From a virus: a stretch of 64,000 nucleotides of DNA. Position numbers and translations under genes: made by a program. The stretch spans positions 1-64,000 of the IMG/VR virus record IMGVR_UViG_3300037247_001044. One strand, given 5' to 3'. The notes beneath the pieces were generated by a model that was given only the letters and a program-made list of their open reading frames with translations, did not search any database and was not told the origin of the DNA. Below, piece after piece: positions 2,408 to 49,632 of the stretch. Positions within the stretch are counted from its first letter, which is position 1, and each line of letters begins with the position of its first letter.

Positions 2408-3418
2408 TCAAAATAGCACTCGTTGCCGGAGGCGGTTGGCGGCAAGACAATGGGGCGAAAACCATACGCGCTCGCGAGTCGAGTTCTCGTTGGTGCGGTT
2501 GTTCCGTTGTGAACCGTAGCCGCCCCGAGCCTTCCACTCGATGCACGTCCACGACTCCGGCATTTCGTGCTCGCCTTCGTAACCACATAACGCGATCCTC
2601 AATTTGGGCTCGTCTGCGTGCTCAAGGCACCATTCGTGCACTTTCTGAGCGACCATCTTGTCGTCGCAACGATACAGTTCCGAAGCACGCCCTGCTTTGT
2701 CTGAATAAGGAGGATCGAGAAATACACCTGTAAGCCCCTGGTGAACTGTTGGCGTCGACCCCGTAATTCGTTGCCAGTCACCGCAGCAGACGCGCACGGT
2801 TCGCAGACGGTCGGCCAGAGCGTGCATCCAATCGACTATCATTTCCCGTGACACCCGACGTGCCGTGAGTCCAACGCCATCGTTCGTGAGATTCTCGCGC
2901 TTCCGGTTGACTCCCCGGCCTTTGTCGCCAACGTGAACGCGCTGCCGGTTGACTCCCCGGCCTTTGTCGCCAACGTGAACGAGCTGCCGGTTGACTACTT
3001 GCCAGGGGCCCTTTCCGCTGCAAAAGCCGCTGCCAATCCAGCAGCACATTCCCCAGCACCACCACCCGGCAATCTTCACGTCGAAGTAATCGGGATCGCC
3101 TTCAAGACTCGCTTGCAACGACTCCTTTTGTCCGACCAACCAAGCGTGCCTCGCGTGGAGATCGTTTTCATTAACAGGCCAATCGGCATGTTCGGCGACA
3201 GCGCCCGGCTGATATTGCACGGCCCGCCAGAAGTTTGCCACAAAGCCATCCACATCGTTGATCGTTTCGCACTGCGGCAGTGACGGACGGCCCAGCAACA
3301 TCGCGCAACTGCCAGCAAACGGCTCCACGTAGTTCGGTACATCACCCAAGTAATTCCACACCAATCCGGCAACGGCCGACTTTCCTCCAAAATACGGGAA
3401 TGGTGCTTTCAGGGTCAT
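2408..3418 (-). CDS. D12-class N6-adenine DNA methyltransferase (Dam-like)
   Basis: 336 residues. The N-terminal FPYFGGKSAVAG is the AdoMet-binding motif I of the D12 class, NYVEPFAGSCAMLL fits the adjacent strand, and LDPPYSD is the catalytic DPPY motif IV. It would transfer methyl groups to adenine N6 in DNA, commonly used by phages to evade host restriction. The middle of the protein (about residues 140-175) contains a 14-residue tandem repeat of the form VNRQRVHVGDKGRG, encoded by 42-bp DNA repeats, which the family normally lacks. The ATG at 3418 overlaps the stop of the upstream gene. Confidence 0.85.
   Translation of the reverse strand: MTLKAPFPYFGGKSAVAGLVWNYLGDVPNYVEPFAGSCAMLLGRPSLPQCETINDVDGFVANFWRAVQYQPGAVAEHADWPVNENDLHARHAWLVGQKESLQASLEGDPDYFDVKIAGWWCWGMCCWIGSGFCSGKGPWQVVNRQLVHVGDKGRGVNRQRVHVGDKGRGVNRKRENLTNDGVGLTARRVSREMIVDWMHALADRLRTVRVCCGDWQRITGSTPTVHQGLTGVFLDPPYSDKAGRASELYRCDDKMVAQKVHEWCLEHADEPKLRIALCGYEGEHEMPESWTCIEWKARGGYGSQRNNRTNENSTRERVWFSPHCLAANRLRQRVLF
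2903..2996. repeat. 42-bp tandem repeat inside the methyltransferase gene
   Basis: Two full copies and part of a third (starting at 2903, 2945 and 2987) of a 42-bp unit containing TTGACTCCCCGGCCTTTG. The period is a multiple of three, so copy-number change would keep the methyltransferase frame and only lengthen a Lys/Arg/Gly-rich insert. Confidence 0.85.
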
Positions 3419-3612
3419 CGCTTGTGATTATCCCTGCACGTACACGGCTGGCATCCACATCGGTAGCAGACAACCACAATAATCGGCAGGTCGTCCACGT
3501 GTTCGATCATTCGCTCCTCGTAGCCGCCCGGGCCGCCAATGAAGCCCAGCGGATGCCGAACGTTGATCGGTACGAACACGCGCGTCGGGCCGTAGGTGAA
3601 GCGGTCGCTCAT
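3415..3612 (-). CDS. Small hypothetical protein with Cys cluster
   Basis: 65 residues. The start (3612) and stop overlap the neighbouring genes by 4 bases each. The C-terminus has CYRCGCQPCTC, a likely metal-binding knuckle. The N-terminal half is not recognisable. Tight coupling to the methyltransferase suggests co-expression. Confidence 0.5.
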   Translation of the reverse strand: MSDRFTYGPTRVFVPINVRHPLGFIGGPGGYEERMIEHVDDLPIIVVVCYRCGCQPCTCRDNHKR

Positions 3613-4190
3613 GTTTCTTCACCTCTTTCAAACTCACAGCCCCACACCACCGGCCCCGTAACCGAGCCGTAGCCCTTGCTGGCGTAGACGGAATCCCATC
3701 CCGCACAGAACGCATCAACGGCACACATGCAGTTGTGCCAGCCTTTTCCGCCGCCTGCCCAGTCCATGTCGTCGTCCCACGATCCAACGCCAACGCTGCC
3801 AGGCATTTCGCACTCAACTCGGTGGGGGCAGTCATGCGGCAGTAACACGCCCTCCCTAATCGCGTCCTCTGCGGATATCTCCAGCAGGCATTCAATCCAC
3901 ACCCGCTTGACCGATAGTTTGATCCGGGACGCGTCCGCGAAGCACTCCCGCACCCAGACATGGTCACCCGGCCCACCGAACGGCGACACACAAGCCGCTC
4001 GGTCGTTTAGCAAGAGCCCGTAGCTCTTCGTTTTCCCAGGTGTGTTGGGATGCAGCCAATCAAGGGATACACGACCGGGGGCGAACCCATCCGGCAATTG
4101 CACCCTCACTGGCCGACGGTCATGCGTCTTGGACCCATCAAGGATGGCCCGGACCATCGCGTCGCTAAATAGAAGTCCTCGTTCGGTCAT
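3609..4190 (-). CDS. ASCH-type (PUA-like) phage protein
   Basis: 193 residues. The opening 'LLFSDAMVRAILDGSKTH..RRPV', then 'GDHVWVRECFA' and a C-terminal 'VVWGCEFER' follow the pattern of phage ASCH-domain proteins (start with LLFS.PMV.AIL.G.KT..RR; middle GD.LWVRE.W; end W...F). These are beta-barrel folds thought to bind RNA or modified nucleotides. It overlaps both neighbours by 4 bases. A second, shorter ASCH-like gene lies at 4517-4864. Confidence 0.65.
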   Translation of the reverse strand: MTERGLLFSDAMVRAILDGSKTHDRRPVRVQLPDGFAPGRVSLDWLHPNTPGKTKSYGLLLNDRAACVSPFGGPGDHVWVRECFADASRIKLSVKRVWIECLLEISAEDAIREGVLLPHDCPHRVECEMPGSVGVGSWDDDMDWAGGGKGWHNCMCAVDAFCAGWDSVYASKGYGSVTGPVVWGCEFERGEET

Positions 4191-44991: not shown

Positions 44992-45194
44992 CAGCCGGCC
45001 CCCGGGGCTTTGAGCCTCACGGTCCGGAGACCGAAGTGATTCTTTGAGGCAGCGGTCTGGGCCGATTCGTGGCGTTGGACTGCGAGCAACTGGTCAAGGT
45101 CGTGAGACTCAACCCGCCCCTTGTCCGTGCTTACGACCTGCGGGTTGAGTGCGGCTCGTTCGAGCGCGTCGGCTATGGTTGTCGGCGTTGCCAT
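44991..45194 (-). CDS. gpW-like head-tail joining protein
   Basis: 67 residues; upstream of the portal by one base. 'ADALERAALNPQVVSTDKGRVESHDLDQLLAVQ' has the layout of lambda gpW/Tail-connector-like small helical proteins (helix, then GRxV..., then helix). The name is by analogy. The gap 45195-45364 holds no gene; it has a TATATA-like stretch at about 45254 and the hairpin listed next. Confidence 0.5.
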   Translation of the reverse strand: MATPTTIADALERAALNPQVVSTDKGRVESHDLDQLLAVQRHESAQTAASKNHFGLRTVRLKAPGAG

Positions 45195-45321
45195 GAATGC
45201 ATGGTAACGCGGCCAAGAGACGCATCAAGGGAAGAGTGGGCAAGTTGCTATATATGGGAGTTTTGGCCAGATACGGCCAGATTTCTGGGGCAGTTGCCGG
45301 ATGATAGAGGCCAGCGCATGA

Positions 45322-45354
45322 GTAAGCCCGGGCACTTGCGGCACCCGGGCTTAC
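45322..45354. terminator. Perfect 11-bp hairpin between array and portal
   Basis: GTAAGCCCGGG (45322-45332) and CCCGGGCTTAC (45344-45354) are perfect inverted repeats around an 11-nt loop. There is no T run on either side, so it is a candidate terminator, processing site or stability element at the 3' end of the array transcript. Confidence 0.45.
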
Positions 45355-45364
45355 CTTGAAAGTA

Positions 45365-45902
45365 GGGCACTGTAGCAATCGGTCTCAGTGCGAAGTTCGC
45401 CTTGGGCTATGCGGCAATGCCGTTGTCGGTTTCACGTAAGCCGTCGCCTTGTCTAGGGCAACTCTTGACTCGGTTTCATCTTGCCTGTCGCCGTGGGTTG
45501 GGGCAACTCATTCTTCGGTTTCAAACTTATCCTCGCCTTGGATTGGGGCGGTGGAGCTTTCGGTTTCATTTGACCCGTCGCCTTGGGATTGGGCTCGGGG
45601 GTAATCGGTTTCAATTTTCCGCTCGCCTTGGGTTAAGGGGCATCGCGTCAATCGGTTTCACGTTCTGGCTCGCCTTGGGCTGGGGCACCGCTGACTTCGG
45701 TTTCACAAGAGCAGTCGCCTTGGGTTGAGGCAATGCTCGGTTCGGTTTCACGAAGAGTATCGCCTTGGATCGGGACACGGGTGCTCTCGGTTTCACATGT
45801 CGACTCGCCTTGGATTTTGGCATTATTGCAGTCGGTTTCACGGGGTCGGTCGCCTTGGGTTGGGGGCAAGCGGCGACTCGGTTTCACTTGGCCTTTCGCC
45901 AT
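45365..45902 (-). repeat. TIGR-like array, block 1 (12 edge repeats)
   Basis: Edge repeats (plus-strand TCGGTTTCA, minus TGAAACCGA) at 45379, 45426, 45470, 45515, 45560, 45605, 45652, 45697, 45742, 45787, 45832 and 45878. They alternate with loop repeats near TGCCCCAACCCAAGGCGA. Every gap between an edge and a loop is exactly 9 nt and differs in sequence (for example CTTATCC-type, CGTAAGCCG, ACTCTTGAC on the plus strand). Period 44-47 bp, with length change only inside the loop repeat. The left end begins with a partial loop (GGGCA). The right end (a truncated TCGCCAT) almost touches the Tas-like stop at 45909. I read this as a TIGR array giving dual-spacer guide RNAs. Confidence 0.85.
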
Positions 45903-45908
45903 ATCTCA

Positions 45909-46985
45909 TCAACCACCGGTCCACGGTTCCGGTTCAATCCCATCGACTTGAAACACCCATTCCGTCCACAACTCACGCAAGAGCCTTTTCCCCATCAACA
46001 GCATCCCGTGGAGGTGAGGCCGCATCACCATCACACCACGGCCTGAGCATTTTTTGCACCCGTCTCCGCTCTTGGCCGTGCCGGTGCCTTTGCACGTTGT
46101 ACAGTCCGGCGTCCACTCCGGGTCTTTCCGGGCAATCGCTTCGGCTTTCTTCGTAGCATACCGTCGGGCATACGGGCCAGCGTAAATTGCCCCATGCGTC
46201 TCAGTTGCCTTTCGGGCCCCGTTGCCTTTCAGGAGCGATTCGGAAATCACGAACATCACCGACCGGCGCCGTGGACAGTAACCCAGTTCCTCCCACTCGG
46301 CCGCAGACAATCCGCCGTTGTGCTTCTTCCGGCTTCGCCACGTCGAGGGCATGAACGTCTTGCCCTTCGACTCAAACGGGGCGCAGCCCATCCGGCGCCA
46401 CAGCTTCCCGGGGTTGTCGTAGTTCGATAGGTCGCCCACTTCGCCGATGATGATGGCCAGCGATAGCCAGCCGAATCCACGCTGATCGGTTAGTGCCATC
46501 CACTTGGCTACGGGGAGTTGTTTGGACAGCTTTCCCATTTCCCGTTCGTAGGCTTTTTCCGTGGCGTGAAAGCCTTCGATCGAGACGGAGCAGGCTTGAA
46601 TCAGGGGGGCCAGGGCATCTCTGGGCCCGGTTTCAATGGCGCTCTCGCCCTGGACCTCCCTGATAAGTTTCTTCGCATCGCCAAACCACCTGGCACGCTC
46701 GTCTTCCTCCATGCCGGCGTGATACCCGCTCGCCGTGGCCACCGTGGCAGTCAAACGGTTGTCGATCATGATCCGCGACTTTTGCGTGGTGACCCGCTGG
46801 CGTTGGAGTTCACGGATATCGGCAACAAGAGAAGGCACGGGGGTAGTCGGTTTCACCGGATCATTCGCCTTCTTTTTCGGCACTTCCGTTTTCGGTTTCA
46901 GACAGGGGATCGCCTTGTCTTTTGGCACGGCATCCCTCGGTTTCAGTGGGGGTTTCGCCATGGGTGTTTCAGTTACGGTTGCCAT
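45909..46985 (-). CDS. tasA-like: Tas-like protein (IS110 C-terminal/Nop-like core), TasA type
   Basis: 358 residues from the ATG at 46985, chosen for GAAAGG 6 bases upstream; an upstream in-frame ATG at 47063 would run through array repeats. Residues 11-55 are three 15-residue repeats (KPxxxVPKxKA type) encoded by three array units. Residues 55-165 are helical. 'DQRGFGWLSLAIIIGEVGDL' (167-186) and 'NPGKLWRRMGCAP' (191-203) match the Transposase_20 helix-hairpin-helix of IS110 and resemble Nop-type RNP proteins. C295-x2-C298-x11-C310-x2-C313 forms a zinc ribbon. No RuvC acidic set or HNH motif is seen, which fits a nuclease-free TasA. Expected role: bind array RNAs and use their two 9-nt guides on DNA. 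Confidence 0.75.
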   Translation of the reverse strand: MATVTETPMAKPPLKPRDAVPKDKAIPCLKPKTEVPKKKANDPVKPTTPVPSLVADIRELQRQRVTTQKSRIMIDNRLTATVATASGYHAGMEEDERARWFGDAKKLIREVQGESAIETGPRDALAPLIQACSVSIEGFHATEKAYEREMGKLSKQLPVAKWMALTDQRGFGWLSLAIIIGEVGDLSNYDNPGKLWRRMGCAPFESKGKTFMPSTWRSRKKHNGGLSAAEWEELGYCPRRRSVMFVISESLLKGNGARKATETHGAIYAGPYARRYATKKAEAIARKDPEWTPDCTTCKGTGTAKSGDGCKKCSGRGVMVMRPHLHGMLLMGKRLLRELWTEWVFQVDGIEPEPWTGG

Positions 46986-47500
46986 GATGGGCCTTTCGTG
47001 GGGTTGAGGGGGGACAGTAGGTCTCTCGGTTTCACGGGGGGGATCGCCCTGGGTTGGGGGCACAACGGTTTTCGGTTTCAGCGTATTGATCGCCTTGTGT
47101 TAGGGCAGGCTGGGGTTCGGTTTCACCCACGAAATCGCCTTGGTTGGGGGCACCGGAACTTTCGGTTTCGTTCTTGTTGTCGCCTTGAGCAGGGGCATTA
47201 CTATGGTCGGTTTCATTGCTCCAATCGCCATGGTTGAAGGCAATGTCTCATTCGGTTTCAAGTCCGTCCTCGCCTTGGATTGGGGCATCAGCTCGATCGG
47301 TTTCACGGTGGCTCTCGCCTTGGGTCGGGCACGTGTCTAATCGGTTTCACGTCCGTCCTCGCCTTGGGATGGGGCATTGACCGGGTCGGTTTCACTATTC
47401 ATCTCGCCTTTGGTTAGGGCACGGGGGTTTTCGGTTTCATTTCCTTGGTCGCCTTGGATTGGGGCAAAGGCTATCTCGGTTTCACCCACTCAATCGCCCA
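46847..47500 (-). repeat. TIGR-like array, block 2 (14 edge repeats)
   Basis: Edge repeats at 46847, 46892, 46937, 47026, 47072, 47117, 47162, 47207, 47252, 47297, 47341, 47386, 47431 and 47476 (9 nt each; the one at 47162 ends CG rather than CA). The first three lie inside the Tas-like reading frame. Between 46946 and 47025 the array is degenerate and carries the gene's start signals. The loop repeats keep GCC/GGC ends even when the middle changes (for example TCGCCTTCTTTTTCGGCA at 46865). The right edge meets the stop of the 165-residue gene at 47501. Confidence 0.85.
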
Positions 47501-47998
47501 CTATTTCTTCACCTTCTGAAACACCTTCGTCAACTTCGCCAGCGTAAACTTCTGCCGAACGGTCGCCTCGCCCTTTACCGTCTTCGCAAGCTCACGACAT
47601 AGTCGCGTGTTGAACTCGTGACCGGACGCCCGCTCGGATTCCGCGTCGGCCGTGGCCACCAGTTCGTCGCCCGTGAGCATCCCGAGAGTTTTGCCCGCGA
47701 TCAAGTAGGCCATCACGCCTTGAGCAATTCGGCCAGACGCTTCCCCGGCCGTAACCTTTGCCGGTCCACCGTAATCGCCATGGGCGGTTCGCATCTCTAC
47801 GTTGATATGATGCCGGGTGTCGTGGATCAGCTTTGCGATTGCCCGGCGGATCAGCTCGTCTTTCAATGTATCGAACCACTGGACCTTGTTTGCCTTCTTC
47901 AGTACGGCCTCGGTCGCGTCCTCGATACTGTCGGGGTGCTTGTCAACGGCCGCGTCTACTAGCTTTTGCAAACGTTCCATTGCTTTCGGTGATTCCAT
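47501..47998 (-). CDS. Unknown array-associated protein
   Basis: 165 residues from the ATG at 47998. The AAGGAG Shine-Dalgarno is part of a loop repeat of the array, which has changed from ...CCCAAGGCGA to ...CCCAAGGAGA. Mostly helical: a Lys/Asp-rich N-terminus, 'LIRRAIAKLIHDTRHHINVEMR', then 'AGEASGRIAQGVMAYLIAGKTLGML' and a basic C-terminal helix (VRQKFTLAKLTKVFQKVKK). No family or catalytic motif recognised. Because it sits inside the array, it may be a partner of the Tas-like protein or a phage gene that was captured. Confidence 0.65.
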   Translation of the reverse strand: MESPKAMERLQKLVDAAVDKHPDSIEDATEAVLKKANKVQWFDTLKDELIRRAIAKLIHDTRHHINVEMRTAHGDYGGPAKVTAGEASGRIAQGVMAYLIAGKTLGMLTGDELVATADAESERASGHEFNTRLCRELAKTVKGEATVRQKFTLAKLTKVFQKVKK

Positions 47999-48002
47999 TG
48001 AG

Positions 48003-48468
48003 TTCTCCTTGGGTCAGGGGGCACTTCCATTTTCGGTTTCACCCCCGAAATCGCCTTGGGTTAGGGCACCTAGTCATTCGGTTTCACACTGGGCTTCGCC
48101 TTGGATAGGGGCAACCTGACAATCGGTTTCACGCTTGCGTTCGCCTTGGGTTGGGGCACCGGGCTTGTCGGTTTCATATTCGCACTCGCCTAGAGTTAAG
48201 GCAATGTACCACTCGGTTTCACTCTCTTGCTCGCCTTTGGGTTGGGGCAACGCATCACTCGGTTTCATGATGAGCATCGCCTTGAGTGGGTGGCACTTTC
48301 TTTTTCGGTTTCAGCTCGGTGATCGCCTTGGGCTAGGGCACACCCTACCTCGGTTTCAGCGGGTATTTCGCCTTGATTTATGCGGCAGTGGGACACTCGG
48401 TTTCACAGCTATATTCGCCGCGCAAGCCTTCCCTTCGGTTTCCACGAAAGGCCGCCCATAAAAGGGCA
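48003..48468 (-). repeat. TIGR-like array, block 3 (10 edge repeats)
   Basis: Edge repeats at 48033, 48078, 48123, 48168, 48213, 48259, 48305, 48350, 48397 and 48435 (the last is TCGGTTTCC and degenerate). The left end is the loop repeat that serves as Shine-Dalgarno for the gene at 47998. The right end is a decayed loop (48453-48468) that still has the GCCC/GGGC stem. This is the 5' end of the array in transcription direction. The degenerate copies are at this leader end. Confidence 0.85.
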
Positions 48469-48523
48469 AGAATTTCCCGAAGGGAAGGGGTATTGTTCAT
48501 AGAGCCAATCGTGGATAACTGCC

Positions 48524-48552
48524 ACCTTACCACCGGTATTACCGATTGTCAA
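48524..48552 (-). promoter_or_regulatory. Candidate array promoter
   Basis: On the minus strand TTGACA (48552-48547), 17 bases, then TAAGGT (48529-48524). The -35 is perfect, the -10 weak. It points into block 3, about 55 bases before the first repeat. A small TTCCC/GGGAA inverted repeat lies at 48474-48486 between them. The rest of 48,469-48,595 has no gene. Confidence 0.35.
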
Positions 48553-48595
48553 CCCCGAAATTCAAAGTGGCCCATTTCCTACCGAATTCCGATGG

Positions 48596-48847
48596 TCATG
48601 TCTTGCTGAGGGGTTTGCCGGCAATAGCTTCACGTCTTTCACGAATGCACTGCTTTGGGATATACATGATTCCGCTAAGCTGCCCGGTATGCTCGTCCCG
48701 GGATGATGCAATACACAACACATCGTCGGTTTCTTGTGCCAAATGGCCGACGGTCGTGATCTTGGCGACTCGCATTTCCAAGCTGTCTTTCTCGGTCCAC
48801 CCATCATCGGATCGTGAATCCAGCCAATCAACTATTTCAAGTGACAT
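48596..48847 (-). CDS. Small conserved hypothetical protein
   Basis: 83 residues; GAGGAAGAAATAAA precedes the ATG. Beta-alpha layout with 'AKITTVGHLAQETDDVLCIASSRDEHTGQLSGIMYIPKQCI'. Looks like a small globular domain found in phages; no function is known to me. It is the first gene upstream of the array promoter. Confidence 0.5.
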   Translation of the reverse strand: MSLEIVDWLDSRSDDGWTEKDSLEMRVAKITTVGHLAQETDDVLCIASSRDEHTGQLSGIMYIPKQCIRERREAIAGKPLSKT

Positions 48848-48848
48848 T

Positions 48849-49055
48849 TTATTTCTTCCTCGGAATTTCCTCCGTCCGAAGCAACGACTGCCCGCAGTGC
48901 CGACATACCCGGCGGCGATGACGGTTCCCGCTGGAAACTCGGTAGGTGGAGGTCACCCGCCAATCGCGACAGCCGCAACGCGGGCAAGCCCACGGATCAG
49001 GATTCGCTTCGTCCGCCATCTCCTGCAAGGATTTGGGGGGCTTCGCGTCTGTCAT
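48849..49055 (-). CDS. NrdR-like zinc-ribbon protein
   Basis: 68 residues from the ATG at 49055. CPRCGCRDWRVTSTYRV followed by 'RRRVCRHCGQ' fits the zinc ribbon at the start of NrdR (CP.C....V.DSR...RRRREC..C). The ATP-cone domain is absent, so only DNA/RNA binding is suggested. It lies between array and terminase. Confidence 0.5.
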   Translation of the reverse strand: MTDAKPPKSLQEMADEANPDPWACPRCGCRDWRVTSTYRVSSGNRHRRRVCRHCGQSLLRTEEIPRKK

Positions 49056-49065
49056 CTTTTGGCAC

Positions 49066-49320
49066 TTAGTCCTTATCGGACGGAATGATTCGACCGAGTT
49101 GCAGCCACCGTCGAAAGTGAAAGTAAATCCCCTGATTATCGTCGACCTGCTCCCCCCGAACGTACACTTTTCCATCGTCATCGAACCGGATCATTTCGCG
49201 CCCATCTGCCAGCAGGAACACAATGCTCCCCGATGGCTCGCCGTTGCCTGGGGAGAACGTCACGTTTCCACCAGCGGGAATGGTCGTCACGTTTCCACCA
49301 TTGCCATTAGCCTCTGACAT
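49066..49320 (-). CDS. Small hypothetical protein
   Basis: 84 residues; GGAGATTTGAT precedes the ATG at 49320. Gly/Asn/Thr-rich N-terminus (NGNGGNVTTIPAGGNVTF), then a beta-type segment (GSIVFLLADGREMIRFDDDGKVYVRG) and a basic C-terminus. Not recognised. Confidence 0.5.
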   Translation of the reverse strand: MSEANGNGGNVTTIPAGGNVTFSPGNGEPSGSIVFLLADGREMIRFDDDGKVYVRGEQVDDNQGIYFHFRRWLQLGRIIPSDKD

Positions 49321-49329
49321 ATCAAATCT

Positions 49330-49632
49330 CCTTTTGTTATTGCCCCGCCATTTCCGCAAGACTCAGTCACGGCTTCACCACTCGGTCTACGTATCTTGCG
49401 ATTCCGGAAACCGCTCATACTTCGTGCAGTCAGTAAAGAGCAACACACACCCTTTGCCTTTGCCCATCCACTTATAGCCACATCTGTAACAGGGGTGGCG
49501 TGCATCTACACATATCTCCGACCAGAGGCAAAGCCGTATCTTGTTCCGTAGTTCATGTTTTCCTGTTGACGGGCCGTCCATGTATTTAGTTTCACGCTTT
49601 TCGTTATCGCTTGGCCATTTCCGCAAGACTCA
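49330..49632. repeat. Terminase 3'-end duplication (2 copies)
   Basis: About 36 bases at 49597-49632, including the terminase end (SLAEM.. and stop), recur at 49330-49365 with few changes (18 identical bases, CCATTTCCGCAAGACTCA, at 49348-49365 and 49615-49632). The extra copy encodes SLAEMAGQ and a stop that belongs to no gene. It is one of several gene-end duplications in this window. Confidence 0.75.
49387..49581 (-). CDS. Small zinc-knuckle protein
   Basis: 64 residues from the ATG at 49581. A 'CLWSEICVDARHPCYRCGYKWMG' stretch suggests a small zinc site; rest is polar. It lies between terminase and its duplicated 3' end. The ribosome binding site is weak. Uncertain but protein-like. Confidence 0.4.
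   Translation of the reverse strand: MDGPSTGKHELRNKIRLCLWSEICVDARHPCYRCGYKWMGKGKGCVLLFTDCTKYERFPESQDT

Follow-up and report, generated by a model that had tools for sequence, protein, structure and literature searches.

TIGR-TasA systems, as far as they are described in the text passages of PMC12045711, combine a solo Nop-type protein that lacks a nuclease with paired 9-nt spacers flanked by box C/D, and are found in tailed phages with arrays upstream and downstream of the gene. According to the same passages, Tas arrays in general are placed upstream and/or downstream of tas, dual-repeat and stem-loop arrays come from different parts of the Tas tree, the arrays of TasR carry UG and CCA motifs that covary between both repeats, and the origin of TIGR arrays, spacer gain, maturation and the role of nuclease-free TasA are open questions (PMC12045711). 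Here we analyze a 64,000-nt stretch of viral DNA (positions 1 to 64,000 of IMG/VR record IMGVR_UViG_3300037247_001044; hereafter the window), in which the minus-strand gene tasA at 45909..46985 and the arrays around it probably constitute a viral TIGR-TasA, an RNA-guided system that would bind DNA without cutting it and in which the mRNA of the effector would also carry guides. The locus shares all the features of TIGR-TasA given in the first sentence, but it differs in its edge repeat of 18 nt, its unit of 45 nt, a box C that reads CGA and not CCA, a putative zinc ribbon, guide units embedded in tas itself, a clade that mixes dual-repeat and stem-loop units, and a partner with no ParB match in Pfam and fold searches. 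The in-frame guide units inside the tas reading frame are new here; the text passages of PMC12045711, as distinct from its supplements, contain no mention of units inside the tas gene, and an earlier report in the latter is possible.

A first-pass annotation made from the letters alone had read the frame at 45909..46985 as a nuclease-free, TasA-like protein related to IS110 and Nop proteins, and this reading has been borne out. The open reading frame is real and bears the motifs that were named; it starts with an ATG at 46985, with AAGG 6 nt upstream, stops at 45909 and encodes 358 aa. The NCBIfam model TIGR_Tas_endo (NF052498) matches residues 58-343 over model positions 2-214 of 215 (E 5.2e-17) and also matches all 22 of the 22 aligned TasA relatives; its match to the protein of locus L003 exceeds the curated cut-off, and a profile of TasA homologues matches TasR chain 9MTY (E 6.6e-11). 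Pfam is nearly silent on the protein (Transposase_20 E 0.19, DnaJ_CXXCXGXG E 0.0012). A search of IMG/VR for close relatives gave a single match at 32% identity, and alignments were therefore needed. The AF2 model (pLDDT 78.8) resembles TasH 9vzx (VIA Z 14.3), TasR 9mty (Z 14.0), the IS110 proteins IS621/ISCro4 (Z ~11) and Nop5/Prp31 (Z ~7.4), so that the structural comparison with Nop5, IS110 and Tas proteins proposed earlier did find related folds, and the top ranks in Foldseek are six TasH chains. The helical N-terminus is predicted to form a coiled coil (helices 50-85, 94-112 and 121-154). TasH (9vzx, 9w02-9w04) and TasR (9mty) have the Nop/coiled-coil RNA-binding fold in common with TasA at Z ~14, whereas their HNH/RuvC is missing here; no RuvC or HNH nuclease domain is found in TasA by Pfam or NCBIfam. 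On these matches and the predicted model, the identification of the product as TIGR-TasA, the nuclease-free Tas type, is supported, and by analogy the protein may mask or mark DNA rather than cut it.

That TasA is instead a degenerate IS110 transposase is very improbable. The NCBIfam IS110 model does match (E 5.8e-8), and the segments RGFGWLSLAIIIGEVGDL and GKLWRRMGCAP, rightly likened to IS110 in the first-pass annotation, lie inside the stretch covered by the Transposase_20, IS110 and TIGR_Tas matches. However, an IS110 transposase is disfavored by the lack of an N-terminal DEDD (RuvC-like) domain in Pfam, NCBIfam and the AF2 model, and TIGR_Tas and the structures of TasH and TasR match better. 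Compared with IS110/IS621 and its single bridge RNA, only the C-terminal RNA-binding fold is common; there is no transposon here, and there is an array of guides.

The array hinted at in the earlier annotation is real. A covariance model built from 80 intergenic units, all from other viruses, identifies 36 units in the window; they all fall within 45366-48428 on the minus strand, and the rest of the 64 kb gives no match on either strand. In the direction of transcription, block 1 (48019..48420, minus strand) has 9 units upstream of a conserved partner gene, block 2 (47011..47500, minus strand) has 11 units between this gene and tasA, and block 3 (45365..45902, minus strand), which follows the tasA stop immediately, has 12 units. 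Each 45-nt unit consists of the edge repeat TGCCCCAACCCAAGGCGA, spacer A of 9 nt, the loop repeat TGAAACCGA and spacer B of 9 nt; both repeats open with TG (box D) and close with CGA (box C), and the spacers are exactly 9 nt. An exact scan of IMG/VR for GGCGA-N9-TGAAACCGA-N9-TGCC returned 13 stretches, 9 of which hold a tas frame, and array and protein are therefore linked independently. Multi-copy arrays of this geometry occur only in members of this clade, a geometry scan having found none outside it at any locus. Just past the last unit lies an 11-bp perfect hairpin (45322..45354, minus strand), read from the sequence as a candidate 3′ end of the array transcript; it lacks a minus-strand T run and was not called as a terminator. 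No sigma-70 promoter was found in 45000-49400. The arrays of L049, L053 and L064 (L numbers designate loci) have other loop repeats (TGTAACCGA, TGCAACCGA), and spacer B of L064 is 10 nt.

What the earlier reading had overlooked is that array units run into the tas coding sequence and sit within it. Of the 36 window units, four lie inside the gene: three encode its N-terminal end, and the fourth falls at the tip of the coiled coil. This fourth one, a stem-loop unit at 46597..46666 (minus strand, core 46614-46649), encodes GESAIETGPRDA in the turn between helices 94-112 and 121-154. It is matched by the covariance model at 46605-46658 (34.7 bits, E 1e-5), keeps 17 of 18 box positions, and has the stem ATCAGGGAGGTCCAGGGC/GCCCTGGCCCCCCTGAT with a hairpin energy of -32.8 kcal/mol (z -3.3). 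When the same protein was recoded synonymously with the gene's own codons, its stem score of 25.5 was reached in 4 of 20000 recodings, and stem together with boxes in none. The three N-terminal units (46833..46961, minus strand) are in frame and encode a KP-rich tail that is predicted to be disordered; each matches the motif at 18 of 18 positions, with covariance model scores of 39.4, 27.2 and 24.7 bits. Their edge linkers read AAAGACA or AAAAAGA and not CCAACCC, giving lysines in the tail, for which selection at the protein level is possible.

The N-terminal units might be untranslated if tas starts farther downstream and block 2 merely extends as far as that start in a frame that is open by chance, which we regard as rather unlikely. 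Two of the three array frames are often free of stops, and the folded domain begins at about residue 46-50: only ~49 residues precede the coiled coil, these are array-encoded and mostly predicted disordered, and the pLDDT of residues 1-45 is mostly ~45-55. On the other side, the ATG at 46985 has the best-placed ribosome site, and in L041 and L046, whose starts lie upstream of their own N-terminal units, AGGAG precedes the start. The unit in the coiled coil is unaffected by either choice of start.

In four or five related viruses, units also occur at another internal loop of tas. Three units of L044 precede the conserved GPYRERYD and a further one is C-terminal; L046 and L040 have two tas-embedded units each, L041 has one and L053 one that is degenerate, whereas L047, L042, L043, L049 and others lack the insert and read straight through this point ('KQNGSGPY'-like). 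The last unit in L041, L044, L046 and L040 uses the conserved GPYR codons as its right arm, and its left arm is complementary to the codons of the same virus. In most cases the embedded stems of relatives exceed nearly all synonymous recodings, and the four tested have folding z values of about -5.3 to -5.7. The encoded peptides follow G(D/E)xxxET(D/E)xxxA at internal positions and AxxxxKPxxxxP at the N-terminus. Ten embedded units were counted in 14.6 kb of tas cores, against none in 8.6 kb of partner gene cores. No near-identical viruses that could show spacer turnover within the coding sequence were found. In the window itself, the residues GARKATETHGAIYAGPY (~46168-46215, minus strand) before GPYARRY have the look of a decayed unit (TGAGACGCA in place of TGAAACCGA) in the same loop as the intact units of relatives; the covariance model gives no match there.

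Two readings of the embedded units have to be weighed. In the one that we favor tentatively, at somewhat below an even chance, guides are kept within the frame of the effector: the tas mRNA would be message and guide precursor at once, the spacers would appear as variable peptide loops, and maturation would cut the message and set the level of TasA. In the other, possible but doubtful, the units are passengers, palindromic guide units that multiply by duplication and do no harm in protein loops, with no role in supplying guides or in controlling tas. Consistent with passengers are the patchy occurrence of the GPY insert on the tree (present in L053, missing from its sister L047), the position of units in loops or disordered tails, and the possible decayed unit of the window. 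These points are opposed by the boxes and 9-nt spacing, which most embedded units keep exactly or almost exactly, by embedded stems that are often longer than intergenic ones and use virus-specific codons, and by partner gene cores that are devoid of any unit.

The structure of the units across the clade bears on the type of array. The variable linkers that separate the units of relatives form complementary flanks, with 75% paired cells among the 80 intergenic units; changes on both sides occur at 11 of 12 stem pairs, and 299 such cells were counted against 117 in shuffles. In the window, pairing in most intergenic units is limited to the 3-bp GGC/GCC, and these units have a dual-repeat look. 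The canonical dual-repeat subtype, with repeats of 8-12 nt and a unit of ~36 nt, is ruled out for the window by the lengths of its edge repeat and unit, and complementary flanks in place of edge repeats, which mark stem-loop arrays, are seen in relatives and in the coiled-coil unit. From the stem-forming linkers of relatives and the dual-repeat look of the window, it follows that the clade spans both array types and links them.

With the fold, the family, the array, its box C/D geometry, the conserved stem and the units inside the gene as observed, the working of the system can be proposed by analogy with work on TasR, TasH and TasA. One minus-strand transcript would carry an array block, the partner gene, an array block, tasA and an array block; units of ~36 nt, made up of box C, spacer A (9 nt), the loop repeat TGAAACCGA, spacer B (9 nt) and box D, would be released from it by processing and taken up by a TasA dimer. 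This dimer would then bind an 18-bp DNA site with one spacer pairing to each strand, and the bound site would probably be bent and unwound but left uncut. Through its embedded units, the tas mRNA would double as guide precursor. Because Tas proteins are needed for tigRNA maturation (text passages of PMC12045711), each embedded unit that is loaded would come at the expense of tas mRNA, and the TasA level could be limited in this way.

Several observations weigh against this system or its embedded guides. The NF052498 score of TasA, 62.5 bits, is under the curated cut-off of 100, and the window's edge repeat and unit are longer than those reported (8-12 nt and 36 nt). Judged only on folding energy, the coiled-coil unit is modest (49 of 5000 synonymous recodings), and the single N-terminal coding unit tested is not unusual. 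Searches for spacer targets in the window and 0.8 Mb of related loci gave nothing beyond chance; in a scan with both pairing models and gaps of 0-2, close matches were about as scarce under the proposed model as under the control. The missing matches to the virus's own window also argue against an improbable alternative, namely that TasA mainly bends DNA to aid the phage's own recombination or packaging rather than to block the genes of rivals. This alternative draws on the DNA bend of ~180 degrees reported for TasR, on the proposal of TasA as an aid to integrases (both in the text passages of PMC12045711), and on the position of the tas locus between the portal and terminase genes.

If the embedded units do serve as guides, they would tie guide supply to effector expression, and in either case units within protein genes offer natural before/after pairs for unit gain. 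Rickettsia palindromic elements are likewise palindromic DNA inserted in frame in protein genes, but they are not known as guide units and lie in unrelated genes, whereas here only tas is affected. The guide scaffold of TnpB overlaps the 3′ end of its gene. TnpB processes its own mRNA into the guide omega RNA (PMC10278001), and is thus alike in taking a guide RNA from the effector's own message; it is, however, an unrelated protein with one guide scaffold, whereas units here are repeated, translated in frame, and placed at internal loops and ends.

The putative DnaJ-type zinc ribbon of TasA (46014..46103, minus strand, about residues 294-323) lies between the GPY helix and the final helix. The CxxC...CxxC motif noted earlier at this place is present (~295-323); it matches Pfam DnaJ_CXXCXGXG at a score under the cut-off of that model (E 0.0012) and, in NCBIfam, anti-TRAP (E 4.5e-4). 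It occurs in 7 of the 17 clade members of the tree and also in L040, whose sequence is partial; L043, L044, L049, L059, L061, L064 and L040 have it in common, and its distribution requires three changes on the tree. The ribbon is a feature of the clade and not a one-off, and its absence from the other members supports the earlier suggestion of a variant addition.

The partner gene (47501..47998, minus strand, 165 aa) sits between array blocks 1 and 2, and AAGGAG precedes its start where edge repeats have AAGGCG. In 16 of 17 clade members, the gene next upstream of tas and on its strand is a homologue; in the remaining one, L059, the contig begins close to tas. Weaker homologues are found in ~17 distant TasA loci. 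The protein has no significant match in Pfam, PHROG or PDB, nor in Foldseek, and its best VIA Z is 4.3; the clade adds a conserved partner gene that is nameless in every library searched. A ParB-like partner, with arrays between the genes, is described for TasA in the passages of PMC12045711; for 16 partner proteins, no ParB match appears in Pfam even when E values as high as 1 are admitted, and nothing significant came from the fold search, though the partner may still be ParB-like.

Distant TasA genes are also present in bacterial genomes (L082 of Phycocomes zhengii, L085, L086 and L087), those of L086 and L087 with partner-like genes upstream; no arrays of the type studied here were seen in these four. 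A prophage search for the host, across 398 genomes from the phylum to which Phycocomes belongs (Planctomycetes), found only the distant case already known. Among phage records, the only Tas is a protein of Rhizobium phage RHph_X2_25 (L004, QWY83253.1; NF052498 E 7.9e-20), encoded at 2578-3633 as a "hypothetical protein" and flanked by candidate repeats at 2232-2269 and 3647-3684. As an isolated phage with a named host, RHph_X2_25 offers a tractable TasA model. Two further candidates, L005 and L007, were read as IS110 transposases and a third, L006, as spurious; the IS110-type transposase of L005 lies within a record of the Wolbachia phage WO.
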